A stretch of DNA of 64,000 nt. Origin: Streptomonospora nanhaiensis (GTDB lineage: Bacteria; Actinomycetota; Actinomycetes; Streptosporangiales; Streptosporangiaceae). The DNA lies in assembly GCF_026642255.1 (NCBI RefSeq), contig NZ_CP113264.1:4340001-4404000 (forward strand), written 5' to 3'. The notes beneath the pieces are model-generated. The model was not told the origin of the DNA, searched no databases, and saw nothing but the letters and a program-made list of their open reading frames with translations. This document shows positions 43,715 to 53,104 of the stretch, in pieces. The number at the start of each line of letters is the position of its first letter. Positions within the stretch are counted from its first letter, which is position 1. The position numbers and the translations under genes were made by a program.

Positions 43715-44803
43715 ATGATCAAGCCGTTCCGCATCGACATCCCCCAGGCCGACCTCGACGACCTGGCCGACAGGCTCTCCCGCACCCGCTGGCCCGACGA
43801 GGTCGCCGACGCCGGGTGGGACTACGGCTTCCCGCTGGCACGGCTCCGGGAACTGGCCGAGTACTGGCGTACCGGCTACGACTGGCGCGAGCACGAGGCC
43901 GGGCTCAACGAGCTTCCGCACTTCACCACCGAGATCGAGGACCAGACCGTCCACTTCGTCCACGTCCGTTCCCCGAGACCGGACGCGCTCGCGCTGGTCC
44001 TCACCCACGGCTGGCCCGGCTCGTTCCTGGAGTTCCTCGACGTCGTCGAACCGCTCTCACGCGACTTCCACCTGGTGATCCCCTCCATCCCGGGCTACGG
44101 CTTCTCCGGGCCGACCCGCGAGCGCGGCTGGGACACGGTCCGGATCGCGCGGGCCTGGGCCGAGCTGATGCGCCGCCTGGGGTACGAGCGCTACGGGGCG
44201 CAGGGCGGCGACTTCGGGTCGGGCATCTCCACCGCGCTCGGCGCGGTGGCGCCCGAACAGGTCGTCGGGGTGCACGTCAACTACCTGCCGACCAGGCCGG
44301 ACCCGGACGCCGGCATCGAGCTGTCCGAGGAGGACGAGGCCCGTCTGGACAAGGTCAGGCACCTGATGGCGAACCGCCCGCCGTACCAGGCCCTGCAGGC
44401 CGCGACCCCGCAGACCATCGGCTACGCGCTGACCGACTCGCCGGTCGGCCAGCTGGCCTGGATCGCCGAGCGCTTCGCCCAGTGGACCGACCCCCGCTCG
44501 CCCGTCGACGACGAGCGGATGCTCACCGGCGTCTCGCTGTACTGGCTGACGGCCACCGCGGCCTCCTCGGCGCGGCTGCACCGCGACGCCCGGCGGCGGA
44601 CCGAGCCGTGCCCGGTACCGGTCGGCGTGGCGGTCTTCGCCCACGACATCACGCAGTCGGTGCGACCGCTGGCCGAGCGGCTGTACGACATCAGGCAGTG
44701 GTCGGAGTTCGAGCGCGGCGGCCACTTCGCCGCGATGGAGGTGCCGGACCTGCTCGCCCGGGACGTCCGGGAGTTCTTCCTGGCCCTCCCCGGGAAGGAC
44801 TGA
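43715..44803 (+). CDS. Epoxide hydrolase family protein with EHN domain
   Basis: 362 residues. An N-terminal EHN domain (about 1-110: FRIDIPQADLDDLADRLSRT, then WRTGYDWREHEAGLN) precedes the alpha/beta hydrolase with oxyanion motif HGWPGS (98-103), nucleophile Asp166 in GAQGGDFGSG and base His337 in GGHFAAMEVP. This is the microsomal-type epoxide hydrolase architecture as found in actinomycetes; substrates are usually lipophilic or natural-product epoxides. It lacks the N-terminal membrane anchor of the animal enzyme. CAGGA precedes the ATG. Control by the divergent MarR protein is likely. Confidence 0.92.
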   Translation: MIKPFRIDIPQADLDDLADRLSRTRWPDEVADAGWDYGFPLARLRELAEYWRTGYDWREHEAGLNELPHFTTEIEDQTVHFVHVRSPRPDALALVLTHGWPGSFLEFLDVVEPLSRDFHLVIPSIPGYGFSGPTRERGWDTVRIARAWAELMRRLGYERYGAQGGDFGSGISTALGAVAPEQVVGVHVNYLPTRPDPDAGIELSEEDEARLDKVRHLMANRPPYQALQAATPQTIGYALTDSPVGQLAWIAERFAQWTDPRSPVDDERMLTGVSLYWLTATAASSARLHRDARRRTEPCPVPVGVAVFAHDITQSVRPLAERLYDIRQWSEFERGGHFAAMEVPDLLARDVREFFLALPGKD

Positions 44804-44906
44804 CACCGGCCGCCGCGCCGGGCCCGCGCGCCCTCCGGGGGGCGCCTGTGCGTTTCGCTGTGCCGCGTCCTCCTCCCGCCGCCGCGTCCCGACAGCGGCG
44901 CGGGCC

Positions 44907-45821
44907 CTACCCCTCCTCGTCCAGGGCCGGACCGTGCTCCAGGAGGTGGTGGACGAACGCCGCCGTGCCCTCGGTGAGGGTGGAGAAGTCCGCCGCGACG
45001 AGGACGGCGTGCCGCGGCGCCCACGGTTCGTCCAACTCGTACAGGGACGCGGGAGAGACACCGTGGCGCCGGGCCGCCCCCCGCGGCACCACGGCGTACC
45101 CCACACCGGTGCAGGCCACGGCGCAGACGGCCCCGAGCGAGGGCAGCCGGACCCGGTAGGCGGGCTCCGTCCCCGCCGCGTGCGCCTGCCGGTCGACGAG
45201 GTCCTGCAGAGGGCTCCCCCGCAGGAGGCCGACCACGGGTTCGCGGAGCAGGTCCGCCAGACGGAGCGGCCTCCGGGGCGGGGAGGAGGCCGGGCCGACG
45301 GCGACGAGGTCGTCGTCCCACAGCCGGCGGGTCTGGCAGGCCGCGCCCGCGGGCACCGAGGAGACGACCGCGATGTCGGAGAGCCCGTCGAGGACGTGGG
45401 CGACGGCCGCCTCGCTGCTCAGCTCGACCAGGGTGACCGCGGTGTTGGGCAGGCGGTTGAGCGTGGCGGCGAGGAACTCGGTGAGGGCGTCGGCGGCGGA
45501 GCTGTTGGTCGCCAGCCTGACGCTGTTCTCCAGCCCCCGGGCGCGGGCGGCCATGCCCGCCTCCAGCTCCCGGGCGCCGTCGAGCAGGACCAGGCCCCTC
45601 GCTGCCAGGGCCTCGCCGGCCGGGGTCGGCGTCACCCCCCGGTGGCGGCGGTCGAGCAGCCGCAGCCCGTAGTGCCGTTCGAGCGCGGTGATGCGGACAC
45701 TGGCGGCCGACAGCGATATCCCGCACCGCTGGGCCCCGTCCGTGATGGAACCCGCCTCGATCACCTCCACGAGCAGCGCGAGGTCGCTCAGGTCGGCCAC
45801 CCCCATCGGTCCTGCCTTCAT
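44907..45821 (-). CDS. LysR-family regulator
   Basis: 304 residues. The N-terminal LysR HTH lies at about 12-70 (LALLVEVIEAGSITDGAQRC; LSAASVRITALERHYGLRLL), and a periplasmic-binding-like effector domain follows (90-300, with VGYAVVPRGAARRH). The family activates or represses on binding a small ligand. Two starts are possible, ATG at 45821 or 45806; the second has GCAGGA immediately upstream. No divergent partner gene with obvious enzymatic role is adjacent, since the next gene (45934) encodes a short hypothetical protein, so the target is unclear. Confidence 0.9.
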   Translation of the reverse strand: MKAGPMGVADLSDLALLVEVIEAGSITDGAQRCGISLSAASVRITALERHYGLRLLDRRHRGVTPTPAGEALAARGLVLLDGARELEAGMAARARGLENSVRLATNSSAADALTEFLAATLNRLPNTAVTLVELSSEAAVAHVLDGLSDIAVVSSVPAGAACQTRRLWDDDLVAVGPASSPPRRPLRLADLLREPVVGLLRGSPLQDLVDRQAHAAGTEPAYRVRLPSLGAVCAVACTGVGYAVVPRGAARRHGVSPASLYELDEPWAPRHAVLVAADFSTLTEGTAAFVHHLLEHGPALDEEG

Positions 45822-46207: not shown

Positions 46208-47014
46208 TCAGCCCCCGGCGGGAACCCGCCCCTGGGCCCCCAGCTGGTGCGAAAGCTCGGCCGCCGCCTCGCGGACGGCCGCGATGACGCCGACCAGGCC
46301 CGTGCCCCGGAAGTGCGTGGCCGGGCCGCCCAGGCTCACCGTGGCCGCCAGGTCCCCGGAGGAGTCGAACACGGGGGCGGCCACGGCGCCCACGTCCTGG
46401 AGGAAGTCCTCGTCGCTGACGGTGTAGCCCTCGGACGCGATCTTCTTCAGCTCACCCCGCAGGACCCCCGCGTCGGTCAGGGTGTGCGGGGTGTACCTGC
46501 GCAGCGGCCGGGACAGCCACCGCTCCCGCAGCGCGGAGGAGTGGGCCAGCATCGTCATCGGCCCCGCCGCCGTGTGGAAGGGCAGCACGCTGCCGACGGT
46601 GATCTGCTTGACGGTCAGCGGCCCGGCCCCCTCGACGAGGTCGATGCAGACCGCCCCGTCCTCGGAGGGCACCATCAGGTAGGCGGTGTGGCCGAAGCGC
46701 GCGGACAGGTCCCGCAGCAGCGGTGCGGCCTCGTCGCGCAGGTTGAGCTCGGCCAGCGCCACGGACCCCACCGCGAACAGCCTCATGTTGACCTTGTAGG
46801 CGCCGTCCGCGCGCTGGCTGACCCAGCCGGCCTGCACCAGCGTGGCCAGGAGGCGGTGCGTGGTGGCCTTGTTCAGGCCGGTCCGCTCCGCCAGCTCACC
46901 GAGCGTGAGCGCGGGCCGTTCGTGGGTGAAGCACTCCAGGAGCCGGCAGGCACGGAGCACCGCGTTGACCGTGCCCTTGGAATCAGCGGCCGATTCACCG
47001 TCGATCATCGCCAC
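46208..47014 (-). CDS. IclR-family regulator of the dicarboxylate cluster
   Basis: 268 residues. An N-terminal IclR winged HTH (about 17-78: LRACRLLECFTHERPALTLG, ELAERTGLNKATTHRLLATL) is followed by the C-terminal effector domain (90-260; GHTAYLMVPSEDGAVCIDLV, TAAGPMTMLA, SEDGYTV-like segment). IclR proteins commonly control catabolism of small organic acids, including glyoxylate and protocatechuate pathways. The start is GTG at 47014, with AGGAGG 10 bases upstream. It lies 105 bp downstream of the acyl-CoA ligase gene on the same strand. Its likely sites are the two GTTCC palindromes in the ligase/lyase divergent promoter. Confidence 0.92.
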   Translation of the reverse strand: MAMIDGESAADSKGTVNAVLRACRLLECFTHERPALTLGELAERTGLNKATTHRLLATLVQAGWVSQRADGAYKVNMRLFAVGSVALAELNLRDEAAPLLRDLSARFGHTAYLMVPSEDGAVCIDLVEGAGPLTVKQITVGSVLPFHTAAGPMTMLAHSSALRERWLSRPLRRYTPHTLTDAGVLRGELKKIASEGYTVSDEDFLQDVGAVAAPVFDSSGDLAATVSLGGPATHFRGTGLVGVIAAVREAAAELSHQLGAQGRVPAGG

Positions 47015-47119
47015 TGAGGAGACCTCCTAGCACGCTCCGTCGTCGATGACAGGGTAACGGCCGGTTCGCGGCGCTCCCGCCACCGTGTGCGGGCCCCGGG
47101 TGCGGGGCCTCCCGCCGGT

Positions 47120-48742
47120 TCAGCGCCCATGGCCGTACTCCGCGCGCATCCGCTTCTTGTCGAACTTGCCCACGCCGGTCTTGGGCACCTCGTCCACCAC
47201 CACGAACCGGTCGGGCAGCTGCCAGCGCGGGATCTGCGCCCCGAGGAAGCTCCGCAGCTCGTCGGGGTCGAGCGGTTCACCGTCCGTGCTCGAGAGGACG
47301 GCGACGGGCCGCTCTCCCCAGACCTCGTCGGGGACCGCGATGACGGCGGTCTCGTTCACCCGCGGGTGGGCGGCCAGCCTGTTCTCCAGGTCGACCGAGG
47401 AGATCCACTCCCCTCCGGACTTGACCATGTCCTTGGCCCGGTCCACCAGGGTCACGTATCCCCGGGCGTCGACCGTCACCATGTCCCCCGTGCGCAGCCA
47501 GCGGCGCCCGTCGGGGGAAGCGGTGAAGGAGGCGCTGTCGTCCTTCTCCGGGGCGTGGTAGTGGTCGACGACGAAGGGGCCGCTGATCTCCAGCTCCCCC
47601 ACCGCGGCGCCGTCGCGGGCGGCCTCGCGCCCCTCCGCCGACGAGCGCACGGCCAGGCCCGGCAGGGGTCGGCCCTGCGTGCGCCGGGCGGCCGAACGCA
47701 CCGCCCCGTCGGGGGTGCACGGTTCCGACGCGACCAGTCCGACCGGCGAGCACTCGGTCATGCCCCAGGCGTGGACGGGCCGGATCCCGAGGCCGGTGAG
47801 CGCGTCGAGCAGGCTCTCCGGGGCGGAGGAGCCGCCGATGACGATCCGGTCCATGGTCGCCAGTGCGTCTCCTGGCGCCCGCCCCTCGTGGAGCGCCCTG
47901 ACCACGGCGGCCCACACGGTGGGGACGCCGGCGGCGAACGTCGCCCGGGAGTCCCGGATGAACCCGGTGAGGCCGAGCGGGTCCAGGTGGCGTCCGGGGA
48001 ACGCCAGCCCGGCCCCCGCCACCAGGCCGGCGTAGGGCAGGTTCCACGCGTTCGCGTGGAACATCGGCACGACCGGCAGCACCACGTCGTGGTGGCCGAT
48101 GGCGAACGCGTCGGTCCCGCACAGCGTGAGCGCGTGCAGGTAGACCGACCGGTGGCTGTAGACGACCGCCTTGGGGCGGCCGGTGGTGCCGGACGTGTAG
48201 CAGATGCCCACGGCCTCGTTCTCGTCGCGCGGGCGCCACCAGCCCCGCCGCTCGGGGACCGGCCGGGTCTCCAGCCGGTGCACGGCCGCGCCGCCCTGGA
48301 CGGCGGGGAGGTCGGGGGCCTCCCCCATGACGAGCACGTGCTCGACCGTGTCGGGAAGGTCGACGGCGGACCAGGACTCCCACAGGGCGCCGTCCACGAG
48401 CACCGCGCGGTCTCCGGCGTGCGCGAGCGTGTAGGCGACCTCGTCGGCGCCGAGGCGGATGTTCACCGTGTGCATGACCATGCCCGCCCCGGGGATCGCG
48501 ATGTAGGCGCGCATGTGGTCCAGCGTGTTCCAGGCGTAGGTGGCGACCCGGTCGCCGGGTCGGAGTCCGAGCCCCTCCAGGTCCTCGGCGAGCCCGCGGG
48601 CCCCGGCGAAGAGCTCGGCGTAGTCCAGTCCGCGGACTCCTCCGGGTTCCCGACCGGTGACCTCGCGGTCGGCGAAGACCGCCTCGGCCCGCTCGAAGAC
48701 GTGGTGCAACCCCAGGGGTTCGGTCTGCATCGCGGAGATCAT
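47120..48742 (-). CDS. AMP-forming acyl-CoA ligase
   Basis: 540 residues. The ANL-superfamily motifs are all present: the ATP loop YTSGTTGRPK (about 190), WGMTECSPVG, the hinge region YVTLVDRAKDMVKSGGEWIS with the GEW-type motif, and the C-terminal catalytic lysine in PKTGVGKFDKKRMR. Sequence style is that of medium/long-chain AlkK-like or DMSP-type ligases. It activates a carboxylic acid to acyl-AMP and then acyl-CoA in the cytosol. GAGGGGAAG precedes the ATG at 48742. It is divergent from the lyase operon, so it probably activates an acid that the lyase releases or the imported acid itself. Confidence 0.93.
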   Translation of the reverse strand: MISAMQTEPLGLHHVFERAEAVFADREVTGREPGGVRGLDYAELFAGARGLAEDLEGLGLRPGDRVATYAWNTLDHMRAYIAIPGAGMVMHTVNIRLGADEVAYTLAHAGDRAVLVDGALWESWSAVDLPDTVEHVLVMGEAPDLPAVQGGAAVHRLETRPVPERRGWWRPRDENEAVGICYTSGTTGRPKAVVYSHRSVYLHALTLCGTDAFAIGHHDVVLPVVPMFHANAWNLPYAGLVAGAGLAFPGRHLDPLGLTGFIRDSRATFAAGVPTVWAAVVRALHEGRAPGDALATMDRIVIGGSSAPESLLDALTGLGIRPVHAWGMTECSPVGLVASEPCTPDGAVRSAARRTQGRPLPGLAVRSSAEGREAARDGAAVGELEISGPFVVDHYHAPEKDDSASFTASPDGRRWLRTGDMVTVDARGYVTLVDRAKDMVKSGGEWISSVDLENRLAAHPRVNETAVIAVPDEVWGERPVAVLSSTDGEPLDPDELRSFLGAQIPRWQLPDRFVVVDEVPKTGVGKFDKKRMRAEYGHGR

Positions 48743-48769
48743 GGAGGCTTCCCCTCTTCGTGGTGGACC

Positions 48770-48781
48770 GGAATGCGTTCC
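48770..48781. promoter_or_regulatory. Candidate IclR operator, ligase side
   Basis: GGAATGCGTTCC is an imperfect palindrome 28 bp upstream of the ligase start. It shares GCGTTCC and its symmetry with the site at 48926. Confidence 0.5.
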
Positions 48782-48889
48782 ATTTTTTACTGATCCGGTC
48801 GGCATCGCGATCGGAGCAGATCGCCGACACAGACCGTTTCAGCACGTAGATCACTTCCGTGTCTGCTGGGTTACAGACCATAGTGACCC

Positions 48890-48937
48890 TTGACACAAGA
48901 TCCTAGCGCTCCCTAGTGTCCTTTTGAAACGCGTTCC
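48890..48937 (+). promoter_or_regulatory. Promoter and candidate IclR operator of the lyase operon
   Basis: TTGACA (48890-48895), 18 bp, TAGTGT (48914-48919) is a good housekeeping-type promoter. GAAACGCGTTCC (48926-48937) covers the expected transcription start and is one mismatch from a perfect palindrome, matching the ligase-side site. A repressor bound here would block initiation. Confidence 0.65.
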
Positions 48938-48957
48938 GCAATACGAAAGGGGTTGGG

Positions 48958-49830
48958 ATGAGTTCCCGACGACTGCGCGAGCTGATGGGCGAGGGGGTCG
49001 TCCACGCGCCCGGCGTGTGGGACGGGCTCACCGCCCGCCTCGCCGAGCAGGCCGGCTTCTCCGCACTGTGCGCCTCGGGCTTCGCGGTCTCCGCGTCCCT
49101 CGGCTACCCCGACGCCGAGCTCTACACCATGTCGGAGAACCTGGAGGCCACCCGCCGCATCCGCGAGTCCAGCGGCCTCCCGCTGATCGCCGACATCGAC
49201 ACCGGGTACGGCAACGCCGTCAACGCCGCCCGGACGGCCCGGCGCTTCCGCGACGCGGGGGTCGCCGCGGTCTTCATGGAGGACCAGGAGTCGCCCAAGC
49301 GCTGCCCCCTCTGCGTCGGAGACCCAGTGCCGTTGGTCCCGCCGGAGGAGGCGGCCATGAAGGTGCGCGCCGTCAAGGACGCCGTCGGCGACGACGTCCT
49401 CGTCATCGCGCGCACCGACGCCCGGGGCGAGGAGGCGCTGCACCGGGCGAAGTCCTACGCCGGGGCCGGGGCCGACATGGTCATGCCGGTCACCAGGACC
49501 TTCTCCACCATCGACGAATGGGCCCGGTGCAGGGAGGCCGCCGGCGTCCCCCTCGTGGCCACGCTCACCGCGTCCGCCTGGACCGAGCGCGAGTTCACCC
49601 CCCGGGTCCTGGAGGAGGTCGGGGTCGCGATCGCGCTCCTGCCCACCCAGGTCCTGATGGCGGCCACCGGGGCCATGCGACAGGCCCTGGGCCGGCTCGC
49701 GGCGGGCGAGCCCCCCGCGGACGTGAGCGCCGACGCCCTGCCGCACCACGAGTTCGTCGACCTGATCGGGTTCGCCGAGGTGGAGGCCGCACAGAAGGCC
49801 TACCTGCCCGCGGCCCGGGGAGGAGCCTGA
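48958..49830 (+). CDS. Isocitrate lyase/PEP mutase-family carbon-carbon lyase
   Basis: 290 residues, the methylisocitrate/dimethylmalate lyase size. Signatures in order: DTGYGN (81-86), metal-binding MEDQ (107-110) and the catalytic loop KRC at 114-116 (Lys-Arg-Cys). Cys116 marks a lyase; PEP mutases lack it. The loop normally reads KRCGH, here KRCPLC, so the substrate may differ from methylisocitrate. The reaction expected is retro-aldol or Claisen cleavage of a 2-hydroxy dicarboxylate to an oxo acid and a short acid. AAAGGGG lies upstream of the ATG. The gene is followed 2 bp later by the aconitase-family subunit, so it heads an operon. Confidence 0.9.
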   Translation: MSSRRLRELMGEGVVHAPGVWDGLTARLAEQAGFSALCASGFAVSASLGYPDAELYTMSENLEATRRIRESSGLPLIADIDTGYGNAVNAARTARRFRDAGVAAVFMEDQESPKRCPLCVGDPVPLVPPEEAAMKVRAVKDAVGDDVLVIARTDARGEEALHRAKSYAGAGADMVMPVTRTFSTIDEWARCREAAGVPLVATLTASAWTEREFTPRVLEEVGVAIALLPTQVLMAATGAMRQALGRLAAGEPPADVSADALPHHEFVDLIGFAEVEAAQKAYLPAARGGA

Positions 49831-49832
49831 CC

Positions 49833-51101
49833 ATGGGCCGCACCATCACCGAGAAGATCCTCGGCCGGACGGCCGAGGGCCCACCGGTCCGCGCCCGCGA
49901 CAACCGCGCCTTCCGCCCCGACCACATGATCGCCTACGACTTCCCCGGGTACACCGACGTGATGTTCCGCCAGATGCACGACGACTTCGGCATCACGGAG
50001 CTGGACGACCCCGAGCGCTACCTGGTCTTCATCGACCACATGCTCACCCGGGGCGACGCCAAGGAGGAGGCGGTCCACCAGGTCACCCGGGACTGGTGCG
50101 ACTTCTACGGGATCACCCTGCACGAGGCCGAGGGGATCGGCCACCAGGTCGCCGCCGAGCTCGGGTACGCGCTCCCCGGCAGGTTCCTCATCCACTTCGA
50201 CGGCCACATCAGCGGACTGGGAGCCTTCGGGGCCCTCGGCTGGGGGGTGCGGCGCGACCTCCTGGAGGCGTGGGTCACCGGACGGATCCACCTGGACGTG
50301 CCGGAGTCGGTGCGGTTCGAGCTCACCGGCAGCTTCCCCGAGGGGGTGGACAACCGCGACCTGATCCACACCATCATCGCCCGGCTCGGCGCCGACGGCT
50401 GCGCCCACCAGGTCATGGAGTTCACCGGGCCCGGAGCGCGCTCCATGAGCATCGACCGCAGACAGGGACTGTGCGGCATGGCGATGTTCACCGGCGCGGT
50501 GTCGGCGATCTTCAACCCGGACGAGCTCTCCCTGGACTACGCCCGAAAGGTGTCCGGCGCCGTCCCCGAACCGCTGTACAGCGATCCCGACGCGGTCTAC
50601 GCCGGCGTGCACGAGATCGACCTCTCGGAGCTGGAACCGCAGGTCGTGCTCCCCGGCTCCGCGCGGGGCGCGAACACGAGGGGGGTCTCGGCCCTGAAGG
50701 GCACCCCCGTCACCAAGGCGTTCATCGGCTCCTGCGCCAGCGGGAGGCTGGAGGACATCCGCGCCGCCGCGCAGGTGCTGCGGGGCCGCAGGGTCTCCGA
50801 CGGCGTGCAGCTCAACGTCGTCCCCACCTCGGCCGCGATCCACCGGCGGGCGGAGGAGGAGGGGCTGCTCGACGTCCTGCGCGACGCGGGGGCGGCCGTG
50901 GCCACGTCCAGCTGCGACTTCTGCTTCGGCTACCAGAAACCGCTGAAGGCCGGGGAGAACTGCGTGTCAACGGGCGTGCTCAACATCTCCGGGCGCATGG
51001 GCGACACGGGCGCCCACATCTACATGGGGTCCGCCTACACCGTCGCCGCCAGCGCCGTGACCGGGGAGATCTCCGACGTACGGGAGGTGACGGGCCCGTG
51101 A
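49833..51101 (+). CDS. Aconitase/LeuC-type hydro-lyase large subunit
   Basis: 422 residues, the length of short 3-isopropylmalate dehydratase-type large subunits. The three [4Fe-4S] ligands are visible: Cys301 in FIGSCASGRLEDI and Cys361/Cys364 in SSCDFCFGY, spaced as in the aconitase superfamily (C-x59-C-x2-C). GSCASGR stands where LeuC has GSCTNSR, a difference typical of specialised dehydratases such as dimethylmalate dehydratase or homoaconitase rather than leucine biosynthesis. It adds or removes water across a C=C bond of a dicarboxylate. GGGGAGGAG precedes the ATG. It is coupled to the small subunit by a 4-bp overlap. Confidence 0.92.
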   Translation: MGRTITEKILGRTAEGPPVRARDNRAFRPDHMIAYDFPGYTDVMFRQMHDDFGITELDDPERYLVFIDHMLTRGDAKEEAVHQVTRDWCDFYGITLHEAEGIGHQVAAELGYALPGRFLIHFDGHISGLGAFGALGWGVRRDLLEAWVTGRIHLDVPESVRFELTGSFPEGVDNRDLIHTIIARLGADGCAHQVMEFTGPGARSMSIDRRQGLCGMAMFTGAVSAIFNPDELSLDYARKVSGAVPEPLYSDPDAVYAGVHEIDLSELEPQVVLPGSARGANTRGVSALKGTPVTKAFIGSCASGRLEDIRAAAQVLRGRRVSDGVQLNVVPTSAAIHRRAEEEGLLDVLRDAGAAVATSSCDFCFGYQKPLKAGENCVSTGVLNISGRMGDTGAHIYMGSAYTVAASAVTGEISDVREVTGP

Positions 51102-51631
51102 GTGCGCTGCCCCCGCCCGACACCATCGAGGGCCGTGTCGCCTGGATCTTCGGGGACGACTTCGACATCGACCTCGTCATCGGCGTGGAGAACATCAAGC
51201 ACTACGACCCCGACGTGCTGCGCAGCGTGTGCATGCGGCACTACGACCCGGCGTTCGCCGACGAGGTGCGCCCCGGCGACGTCGTCGTCGGGGGCCGCAA
51301 CTTCGGCTACGGGCACCCGCACTACCCGCCGATGGTCGCGCTGCGCAACCTGGGGATCGCGGCCGTCGTCGCCGAGTCCTTCTCCCCCGGCTTCTGGCGC
51401 GGGGAGACCTACAACGGCATGCCGCTGCTGACCGTCCCGGGCATCACCCGCGCCGTCCGCCGGTGGGACCGCGTCTCCATCGACTGGCGGCGCCCCGCCG
51501 TCCGCCTCGCCCGCCAGGACGCCGAGCTGACCGGGGAACCGCTCAGCGAGCGCGTGGTCAAGGTCATCGAGGCCGGCGGGAGCCTGAACCTGCTCCTCGC
51601 CGAGCACCGACGGGCACGCGCCACCGGCTGA
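51098..51631 (+). CDS. LeuD-type hydro-lyase small subunit
   Basis: 177 residues. The swivel domain has the family core VVVGGRNFGYGHPHYPPM, corresponding to the GxNFGCGSSREHAP loop of LeuD. Here it is GYGHPHYP, so the conserved CGSSREH substrate loop is replaced, again arguing against isopropylmalate as substrate. IAAVVAESFSPGFWRGETYNGMPL follows as in the family. The start is GTG at 51098, overlapping the large-subunit stop (GTGA), so the two are made in equal amounts. With the large subunit it forms the hydratase of the cluster. Confidence 0.9.
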   Translation: MSALPPPDTIEGRVAWIFGDDFDIDLVIGVENIKHYDPDVLRSVCMRHYDPAFADEVRPGDVVVGGRNFGYGHPHYPPMVALRNLGIAAVVAESFSPGFWRGETYNGMPLLTVPGITRAVRRWDRVSIDWRRPAVRLARQDAELTGEPLSERVVKVIEAGGSLNLLLAEHRRARATG

Positions 51632-51769
51632 CCGGCACTCCCGGTCCGCCTCACCGACGGGCGCGAACACCACGCCGGCGCCCCGCCGCCCCGCACGCAC
51701 GGGGAGGCACCATCCCCCCGAGAGCCCGTGACGGGCGCTCGAGCTCCATCCCCACCAGGAGGTATCGCC

Positions 51770-53104
51770 TTGTCCTCTGCAGAGAGCGCCGGGAGCTCCC
51801 CGGCCGTCGCCGCACCCGGCGCACCCGTGCGCGACCGGCGCACCGCACTGCGGGCCGCGGTCGCCGGCGGGGTGGGAACCCTGATCGAGTACTACGCGTT
51901 CAGCGTCTACGGGTTCCTGGCCGTCGTCATCGCCCCGCTGTTCTTCCCCAGTTCCAACCCCGCCACGTCGATCCTGGCCACCCTGGCCGTGTTCGGGTCC
52001 GGCTACCTGATGCGGCCGCTCGGCGGGATCTTCTTCGGCCGCCTCGGCGACCGGAGCGGGCGCAAGGTGGCACTGGTGTCCACCGTCGTCAGCATGGGCC
52101 TGTGCTGCGCCCTGATGGGCGTACTGCCCACCTACCCGCAGGTCGGCATCACCGCTCCGATCCTGCTGGTGATCGTCCGCATGGCGGAGGGCTTCTCTGC
52201 CGGGGGCGAGATCGGCGGATCGGCCACCTACATCGCGGAGTCCTCGCCGTCCGGGCTGCGCGGCTTCTTCGGGGCCTTCACCCCGACCGGGTCCACCCTG
52301 GGCTTCGCGGTCGCGGCGGCCGTGGCCGGGATCGTCGTCGGGCTCCTCTCCCCCGATCAGATGTCGGCCTGGGGATGGCGCGTCCCGTTCCTGCTGTGTA
52401 TCCCGCTGACCCTCCTGTGCCTGTGGGCGCGGCTCAAGCTGGAGGACACCCCCGACTTCAGGGAGATGGAGGCCCGGTCGGAGGTGACCCGCAGCCCCTT
52501 CGTCGACGTGCTGCGGAGCAACTCGGGATCGGTCCTCAAGGTCATCGGCCTGGCCGTCGCCACCAATGGCACGGGGTACATCGGGCTGACCTACATGAAC
52601 GTCTACCTGATCAACGACCTGGGCTACGACTCCCAGCACGTGTACTGGCTCTCGGCTGCGATCATCGGCCTGGCCTGCCTGTGCATGCCGTTCATGGGCA
52701 TGCTCACCGACCGCTTCGGGCGCCTGACCGTGCTCACCACGGGGTGCGTCGGGTACGTCCTGCTGGCCTACCCCATCCTGCTGGCCATGTCCGAGGCCTC
52801 GGGGCTCCTGGTCGTGGGGCTGGTGTACCTGGTGTTCATGATCCTCAACGCGGCACTGCAGGTCCCCGCGTTCCCCCTGTTCACCGAGCTCTTCCCGCGG
52901 GCGGTCCGCTACACCGGCGTCTCCCTCGGCTTCAACATCGGGACCATCGTCGCCGGCGGGACGGCCCCCTACATCGCGGCCCAACTGGTCGCGTCCACGG
53001 GCAACCCGGTCTCCCCGGCCTACTGGGTGATGGGGGTGGCGGTGGTCGGCCTGCTCACCGCGCTGACCCTGCGCTCCACCCGCTCGGGCGAGCTCCCCGG
53101 CTGA
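51770..53104 (+). CDS. MHS-family (MFS) organic acid/proton symporter
   Basis: 444 residues, 12 predicted transmembrane helices. It has the MFS loop 2-3 motif GRLGDRSGRKVAL and the metabolite:H+ symporter features of the MHS branch (citrate, alpha-ketoglutarate, shikimate and betaine porters): RAAVAGGVGTLIEYYAFSVY in helix 1, MRPLGGIFFG, and MAEGFSAGGEIGGSATYIAE. It most likely imports the dicarboxylate that the cluster degrades. The start is TTG at 51770, fixed by AGGAGG 7 bases upstream (51757-51762). It follows the small-subunit gene by 138 bp on the same strand. A terminator hairpin follows. Confidence 0.9.
   Translation: MSSAESAGSSPAVAAPGAPVRDRRTALRAAVAGGVGTLIEYYAFSVYGFLAVVIAPLFFPSSNPATSILATLAVFGSGYLMRPLGGIFFGRLGDRSGRKVALVSTVVSMGLCCALMGVLPTYPQVGITAPILLVIVRMAEGFSAGGEIGGSATYIAESSPSGLRGFFGAFTPTGSTLGFAVAAAVAGIVVGLLSPDQMSAWGWRVPFLLCIPLTLLCLWARLKLEDTPDFREMEARSEVTRSPFVDVLRSNSGSVLKVIGLAVATNGTGYIGLTYMNVYLINDLGYDSQHVYWLSAAIIGLACLCMPFMGMLTDRFGRLTVLTTGCVGYVLLAYPILLAMSEASGLLVVGLVYLVFMILNAALQVPAFPLFTELFPRAVRYTGVSLGFNIGTIVAGGTAPYIAAQLVASTGNPVSPAYWVMGVAVVGLLTALTLRSTRSGELPG

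Follow-up and report, generated by a model that had tools for sequence, protein, structure and literature searches.

Organisation of the locus

The DNA analysed here is a 64,000-nucleotide stretch of Streptomonospora nanhaiensis (contig NZ_CP113264.1, positions 4,340,001 to 4,404,000; hereafter the window), from a genome of 7.27 Mb. The system in question is a group of six genes coding for an IclR-family regulator, an adenosine monophosphate (AMP)-forming acyl-coenzyme A (CoA) ligase, a lyase of the isocitrate lyase (ICL)/phosphoenolpyruvate (PEP) mutase superfamily, the two subunits of a hydratase of the aconitase/isopropylmalate isomerase (IPMI) type and an MHS-type symporter (Table 1). Gene calls and Pfam/NCBIfam scans confirmed that the six genes lie together where the initial annotation had placed them, and the motifs that it quoted (GSCASGR, GYGHPHYP, KRCPLC and Cys116) are all present. 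The genes form two divergent units rather than one operon: the regulator and the ligase make up the minus-strand unit, and the lyase, the large and small hydratase subunits and the symporter make up the plus-strand unit. The small-subunit gene has a GTG start and overlaps the stop of the large-subunit gene by four bases. An alternative open start of the ligase gene is found at 48805, and the symporter gene has a longer open frame from a GTG at 51728, yet an AGGAGG precedes the TTG at 51770.

Table 1. Genes and operator-like elements of the six-gene locus (positions within the window)
Feature	Position	Strand	Evidence
IclR-family regulator, 268 aa	46208..47014	-	Pfam/NCBIfam
AMP-forming acyl-CoA ligase, 540 aa	47120..48742	-	Pfam/NCBIfam
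GGAATGCGTTCC, partial two-half-site copy of the operator-like palindrome	48770..48781	.	motif scan
Composite palindrome TGAAA-CGCG-TTCCG-CAATA-CGAAA, candidate IclR operator	48925..48948	+	motif scans
ICL/PEP-mutase superfamily lyase, 290 aa, loop KRCPLC with Cys116	48958..49830	+	Pfam/NCBIfam, alignments, tree, model
Aconitase/IPMI-type hydratase large subunit, 422 aa	49833..51101	+	Pfam/NCBIfam, alignments, tree
Hydratase small subunit, 177 aa	51098..51631	+	NCBIfam, alignments, model
MHS-type MFS metabolite:H+ symporter, 444 aa	51770..53104	+	Pfam/NCBIfam

Pfam and NCBIfam gave nothing more specific for the six proteins, no equivalog cut-off being reached among the families shown. The sole curated score passed was that of the broad LeuD/DmdB subfamily TIGR02087 (112.4 versus 108.95 bits). 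The equivalog nearest to the regulator is BhcR (133 bits, cut-off 350), and the ligase comes closest to the PRK06187 subfamily (475.6 bits, cut-off 476), followed by 3-(methylthio)propionyl-CoA ligase (446, cut-off 822).

A conserved core of three genes

A small-subunit alignment searched against 84,980 species genomes found 285 relatives, and the large subunit, as a protein query against 72,556 plasmid records, matched 574 records. The counts given below rest on 87 loci, namely the best 80 of the 285 genome relatives, six plasmid loci and the window, some of which nearly duplicate one another (L019/L020, for example, and a number of Nocardia). Two patterns served to pick the 80 genome loci, one of them being part of the small-subunit loop, and all 87 loci contain that loop pattern; the signatures of the large subunit and of the lyase, as well as eight plasmid relatives, are free of this loop-based selection. 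These eight stand out among the best 20 of the 574 plasmid matches with 49.6-70% identity, after which identity drops to 38%. All eight (8/8) have GYGHPHYP in the adjoining small subunit, and the best plasmid match below the gap, from Ancylobacter (L012), has the normal Ser-Ser-Arg loop.

The lyase and the two hydratase subunits co-occur in 84/87 loci, mostly from Actinomycetota but also from Pseudomonadota and Bacillota, and the co-occurrence of this trio is therefore far beyond chance. The large-subunit gene adjoins the small-subunit gene in 86/87 loci, and the lyase gene lies directly upstream in 67, directly downstream in 12, at most six genes away in 5 and was not called in 3. Two of these last loci (L018 and L033) are cut by contig ends, and L033 shows a lyase fragment; in the third, Polaromonas L011, the small subunit is present and the large-subunit gene is split over two frames. 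A regulator of the same cluster as the window's occurs in 61/87 loci, a symporter of the same cluster in 58/87 and a CoA ligase from one of three clusters in 39/87. The trio is joined by both the regulator and the symporter of the window's clusters in 54/87 loci, and by all three other genes, with the ligase in its orthologous form, in 7/87 (the window, Streptomonospora L013, Prauserella L014, L015, L017, L022 and Amycolatopsis L058). The conserved core is thus three genes and the complete six-gene form is uncommon. The neighbourhood that the initial annotation had proposed is conserved as far as the trio is concerned, but its view of exactly this set of genes as a self-contained pathway was not supported as stated, since transporters differ between lineages and some of these bring in additional hydrolytic or redox enzymes. 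A relative of the window's ligase (41% identity) was also seen in Neobacillus niacini (L086:599-2194), about 6.5 kb from the hydratase pair.

The hydratase keeps its cluster ligands and lacks the serine base

The predicted iron-sulphur cluster ligands Cys301, Cys361 and Cys364 (358, 421 and 424 in mAcn) are kept in 86/86 rows with a residue, one row being gapped. The same holds for the position of aconitase His101 (His69, 86/86 rows with a residue), for those of His147, Asp165 and His167 (His104, Asp123 and His125, 87/87) and for that of Arg452 (86/86). In the passages of PMC8184944 that deal with these residues, roles in aconitase are given for the cluster cysteines, His101, His147, Asp165 and His167, and Ser642 appears as the general base of the known aconitase-family activities, with a homologous serine in AcnX and no exception named.

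This serine is lacking in the window family. The small-subunit loop GYGHPHYP reads His73-Pro74-His75-Tyr76 where Ser-Ser-Arg-Glu is expected, and the positions of Ser642, Ser643 and Arg644 are occupied by His73, Pro74 and His75 in 87/87 loci (LeuD has Ser at 73 and Arg at 75), with the same loop in the 8/8 plasmid relatives. In the large subunit, Gly124 stands at the position of Ser166 (87/87) and Leu383 at that of Arg447 (86/86 rows with a residue), the corresponding residues of LeuC being Ser and Arg. Functional roles belong to Arg447, Arg452, Arg580, Arg644, Ser166 and Ser643 in aconitase, and the RN, SSR and DSH residues of isopropylmalate isomerase and homoaconitase are all absent from the window family. 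Three residues have been gained in the small subunit, Lys34, Tyr76 and Glu103, each in 87/87 loci. The equivalog scores are low (LEU2 255.8 versus 610.65; leud 80 versus 245.85), LeuC, LeuD and HacAB all being missed widely, and the name 3-isopropylmalate dehydratase that the small subunit has on annotated records is probably wrong. Given these replacements, the base of the hydratase would probably be His73 or a neighbouring residue.

Another strongly divergent aconitase-type pair was seen on Roseomonas plasmids (L120:6691-8513 and L121:6530-8528), with the small-subunit loop NFGHHNHVEVS and, in the large subunit, DEGN instead of DSHT. It adjoins a flavin reductase and a fumarate hydratase-type pair, and no lyase is annotated in the 16.5 kb shown. 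This pair may be a second variant without the serine base.

The lyase is altered on one side of its active site

Cys116 of the window lyase aligns with the catalytic cysteine of Escherichia coli PrpB. It is kept in 84/84 loci, together with the acids of the Mg2+ site (Asp52, Asp79, Asp81 and Glu108) and Arg152 (Arg158 in PrpB). The Mg2+ site and the loop of PrpB, and the cysteine as the acid acting on the leaving carbon in ICL, are described in parts of PMC11982470 and PMC7609661. The loop itself has changed from KxCGH to KxCP, with Pro117 in 82/84 loci, so that the positions of PrpB Gly124 and His125 differ. The position of Glu188 is Lys or Arg in 84/84, Asn210 is lost in the family (though what exactly stands there is uncertain), the Tyr43 position is Cys in 67 loci and the Arg241 position is Met in 69. 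Glu188, Asn210 and Arg241 have functional roles in PrpB. Nine reference lyases were aligned; CGH is present in each of the eight that have a loop cysteine, and their position 188 is always acidic, with Asp in Acidovorax L125 and Glu in the other seven. The score against the PrpB equivalog is 188.6, with a cut-off of 354.4.

Judged from these alignments, the side of the lyase that would hold pyruvate or glyoxylate seems intact, whereas the side facing the leaving acid seems altered. Since both enzymes are changed at the positions for a second acid group (in the lyase, going by the PrpB roles), the comparison suggests one shared, unusual substrate.

A role in phosphonate metabolism was considered for the SGF and GNAVN stretches that the lyase has in common with phosphonopyruvate hydrolase. 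We rejected it because Cys116 is invariant in 84/84 loci, whereas phosphonopyruvate hydrolase and PEP mutase have no catalytic cysteine in the gating loop, and because the cut-offs of these two enzymes (122.1 versus 374.4 bits and 112.3 versus 319.55 bits, respectively) were missed.

Ancestry and predicted structure

Maximum-likelihood trees were built from 22 family rows together with 7 reference rows for the large subunit and 9 for the lyase. In both, the window family forms one clade, with support of 98/98 (large subunit) and 86/73 (lyase). A branch of Pseudomonadota and Bacillota is common to the two trees (99/96 and 97/94), and the branching among actinomycetes is largely without resolution in either. 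The distances of the lyase and the large subunit are correlated over the 84 loci (r=0.977), which is consistent with the trio having been inherited as a unit. AlphaFold models of the small subunit and the lyase (mean predicted local distance difference test scores of 88.8 and 88.6) indicate ordinary folds, since the former best matches the IPMI small subunit 3vba (E 3.9e-17, template modelling score 0.85) and the latter the 2-methylisocitrate lyases 9hhy, 3eoo, 4iqd and 1mum.

The trees also bear on whether these genes could simply be duplicated leucine or methylcitrate enzymes with an unchanged function, as the isopropylmalate dehydratase name on annotated records would have it. E. coli PrpB and E. 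coli LeuC are each joined in the trees by another copy from this genome, its second lyase and its own LeuC respectively, and the window family stands apart from both (the E. barkeri enzymes discussed below are outside the two trees). Scores lie far below the equivalog cut-offs of LeuC, LeuD, HacAB and PrpB, and catalytic positions differ. We consider an unchanged function hardly credible and reject a housekeeping role in leucine synthesis or the methylcitrate cycle on the equivalog scores and the trees. The initial annotation had proposed a set for import, (de)hydration, cleavage and activation distinct from the leucine and methylcitrate enzymes, and with this view both trees and residues agree, neither the lyase nor the large subunit grouping with PrpB or LeuC of E. 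coli.

An operator-like element ahead of the lyase gene

Between the divergent units, a composite palindrome of the pattern TGAAA-N4-TTCCG-N5-CGAAA ends 9 bases ahead of the lyase ATG, and its partial copy, GGAATGCGTTCC, lies 27 bases from the ligase ATG (Table 1). The general form CGGAA-N4-TTCCG-N5-CGGAA was found at 12/15 positions or better in 48/58 divergent regions, the window reaching exactly 12, versus 0.9% of first-order Markov copies. The element precedes the lyase start in 53/84 loci versus 16/935 other genes of the same loci, and 44/51 of the elements in forward orientation end 2-17 bases before that start (starts as called by our own gene finder). The motif was counted in the very loci that had served to define it, and the relatives are not independent. 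The single exact match to YGRAA-N4-TTCCG-N5-CGRAA anywhere in the genome is the palindrome at 48925-48948, and the reversed pattern has none. A scan for sigma-70-type promoters found nothing.

These counts point to a shared element, to which the IclR regulator would bind. Its presence argues against independent control of the genes, which the initial annotation had named as an outcome that would speak against a common pathway.

Distribution and partner genes

Scores above 260 bits were obtained in 2/120 genomes of the window's family and 2/396 genomes of its phylum, the window's own genome being counted in both, and the remaining matches (77-130 bits) are in the range expected for LeuD-like proteins of the ordinary kind. 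Searches of three further genomes from the same genus as the window gave no match. The module is thus patchily distributed, and horizontal spread is probably behind it.

The partner genes differ between lineages. They were named after scanning a single representative of each, most NCBIfam scores being well under the curated cut-offs. Seven loci (two Azospirillum, one Variovorax and four other Pseudomonadota) add a metallo-beta-lactamase (MBL)-fold hydrolase, whose top scores are with quorum-quenching lactonases, and a GlcD-like flavin adenine dinucleotide (FAD) enzyme. Extra genes in some of the Actinomycetota loci code for a KstD-like flavoprotein (11), an Ohr protein (6), a cyclase-family hydrolase (3) or ATP-binding cassette (ABC) proteins of the branched-chain type, and a two-domain alpha/beta hydrolase occurs in 10 loci from two phyla. 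Neobacillus L085 has a fumarylacetoacetate hydrolase (FAH) protein, scoring best, and under the curated cut-off, with 2,4-didehydro-3-deoxy-L-rhamnonate hydrolase, plus a different CoA ligase. In the gammaproteobacterial L084 (7328-11421) there are proteins nearest to the alpha and beta subunits of caprolactamase, well under the cut-offs, a hint at a lactam as a possible upstream compound. The core seems to be fed by different upstream steps in different lineages, several of them perhaps ring-opening.

With such partners in mind, a lactone, lactam or ester could be opened upstream to free a hydroxy- or sugar-type monocarboxylic acid, which the hydratase would dehydrate without acting in the other direction; the lyase would then be a retro-aldolase working on the dehydrated product. 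A substrate of this kind needs a single carboxylate, which would fit the lost arginines, and the MBL-fold, alpha/beta and cyclase-family hydrolases, the GlcD-like enzyme, the FAH protein and the caprolactamase-like subunits would all find a place in it. However, the hydrolytic and redox partners are lineage-specific and none occurs in the window's own form, and the presence of CoA ligases and of ABC transporters of the branched-chain type speaks for a less polar acid. We regard this scheme as rather improbable.

Just beside the module (43715-45821), inspection by eye showed an epoxide hydrolase-like protein (362 aa, plus strand) and a LysR-like regulator (304 aa, minus strand).

Proposed pathway

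The locus is probably a catabolic module for one organic acid, comprising import, (de)hydration, cleavage and CoA activation. The MHS symporter would import the acid, and the two-subunit hydratase, a [4Fe-4S] hydro-lyase by its family, would add, remove or shift water to give a 2-hydroxy acid, using the cluster together with a base other than serine (His73 or its neighbour). The Mg2+- and cysteine-dependent lyase would cut the C2-C3 bond, releasing pyruvate or glyoxylate and a second acid, and the ligase would convert an acid, most likely this second product, to its CoA thioester. By binding to the palindrome ahead of the lyase gene, the IclR regulator would govern both divergent units. Since dicarboxylate-recognition residues have been lost in both enzymes, the residues suggest a substrate other than a plain alkyl-malate or alkyl-maleate, with a second group that is neutral or held otherwise.

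More tentatively, and with slightly less than even confidence, we propose that the hydratase defines an additional branch of the aconitase superfamily, one with a His-Pro-His-Tyr loop instead of the serine base that even AcnX retains. Together with a lyase whose gene nearly always adjoins it and whose side for the leaving acid was rebuilt in parallel, it would open a catabolic route without a described pathway for a carboxylic acid, derived perhaps from a lactone, lactam or imide. The replacement of the usual catalytic serine in an aconitase-like enzyme points to a breakdown route that has not yet been described.

Several observations weigh against the pathway proposed above. The invariance of the loop in the 80 genome loci partly reflects their selection by a loop pattern, and Lys34 with the His-Pro-His-Tyr loop could provide a novel binding mode for a second carboxylate, so that the substrate may be a dicarboxylate after all. 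In the lyase, the residue at the Asn210 position depends on the alignment (Thr or Ser in 83/84 in one, Gln or Val in three Pseudomonadota/Bacillota rows of another), and several reference lyases with a normal loop also lack Tyr43, Arg241 or both, so that these two are no family markers. The lyase clade has moderate support, and the tree program warned of long reference branches. Polaromonas L011 has no lyase match in its 17 kb. No ligase of a recognised cluster was found in 48/87 loci, and CoA activation may therefore be carried out by an unlinked gene or not be part of the module. Finally, when one mismatch is allowed, the operator pattern has 5 matches in the genome versus 2 for the reversed control, and for this reason we claim no wider regulon or further operator targets.

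The aconitase family is a textbook case of one catalytic machine being reused, in which the Fe-S cluster and the serine base are taken as the core. A widespread subfamily that keeps the cluster without the serine would change that picture. The catabolic substrate is directly testable, given that the partner lyase offers a coupled assay readout through the release of pyruvate or glyoxylate and that the conserved operator-like element gives the regulator as a handle on the inducer.

Comparison with known systems

The nicotinate fermentation of Eubacterium barkeri uses a dimethylmaleate hydratase (DmdAB) and a 2,3-dimethylmalate lyase (Dml). The window family resembles this system in having the genes of a two-subunit LeuCD-like hydratase beside that of an ICL-superfamily lyase (the lyase gene adjoins the pair in 79/87 loci) and in the expected order of hydration followed by C-C cleavage. 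We used the Ancylobacter locus L012 as a stand-in of the same design for DmdAB/Dml. In regard to this locus the window family forms its own, separate clade and differs in lacking the Ser-Ser-Arg loop, the Ser of DSH, the Arg of RN and the CGH/Glu188 signature of the lyase.

Two further pairings were seen on plasmids. In a haloarchaeal Halomarina (L123:5712-8386) a LeuCD-like pair with normal residues lies beside an ICL-type lyase, an acyl-CoA dehydrogenase and an acetate-CoA ligase family protein. In Azospirillum brasilense (L126:4989-7919) an ICL-type lyase is directly followed by leuC and leuD, with proline racemase-family and ABC genes nearby; this is a further pairing that perhaps serves a different substrate.

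The module could follow an ordinary route like that of DmdAB/Dml, in which the hydratase turns an alkyl- or dialkyl-maleate into an alkylmalate. The lyase would split this into a short acid, for example propionate, and either pyruvate or glyoxylate, and the substrate would keep both of its carboxylates. The enzyme pair and the reaction classes are the same, the normal-residue pairs of L012 and L123 show the design to be recurrent, and a leaving acid with a hydrophobic side chain would be in keeping with the change from KxCGH to KxCP, by which the loop His is lost. On the other hand, L012, L123 and E. coli LeuC/LeuD retain SSR, DSH and RN, all lost in the window family, and the L012 and L123 lyases likewise retain the CGH and Glu188 that it has lost. 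A plain alkyl-maleate is thus possible as substrate yet disfavoured by the residues, because the dimethylmalate stand-in keeps the usual ones, and we hold this route to be unlikely. Of the dimethylmalate analogy drawn in the initial annotation, then, the type of reaction stands, and the residues speak against an ordinary alkyl-maleate. Maleimides derived from chlorophyll or haem would be a guess for the source of an alkyl-maleate; the residues disfavour such a dicarboxylate, and a search of the open-access literature found no bacterial pathway for these maleimides.

Returning to the histidine-loop branch that we propose, its members share with LeuCD and HacAB the fold, the domain split, the three cluster cysteines and the His101, His147, Asp165 and His167 positions, and differ from them in the serine base (now His), Ser643 (Pro), Arg644 (His), Ser166 (Gly) and Arg447 (Leu). 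With PrpB, the window lyase has in common the fold, the Mg2+ site, Arg152 and the catalytic Cys116, and it differs at the Gly124-His125, Glu188, Asn210, Tyr43 and Arg241 positions, the last two of which vary in some reference lyases too. AcnX is another superfamily member turned to a different kind of substrate, but in the opposite way: according to the relevant passages of PMC8184944, it keeps the serine base (Ser70, likely homologous to Ser642) and has changed its cluster ligands.

In the open-access literature of PubMed Central we found no description of this module. Its general design, a LeuCD-like hydratase beside an ICL-type lyase, was already known from dimethylmalate chemistry and recurs here in L012, L123 and L126; what is new in the window family is the altered catalytic positions.

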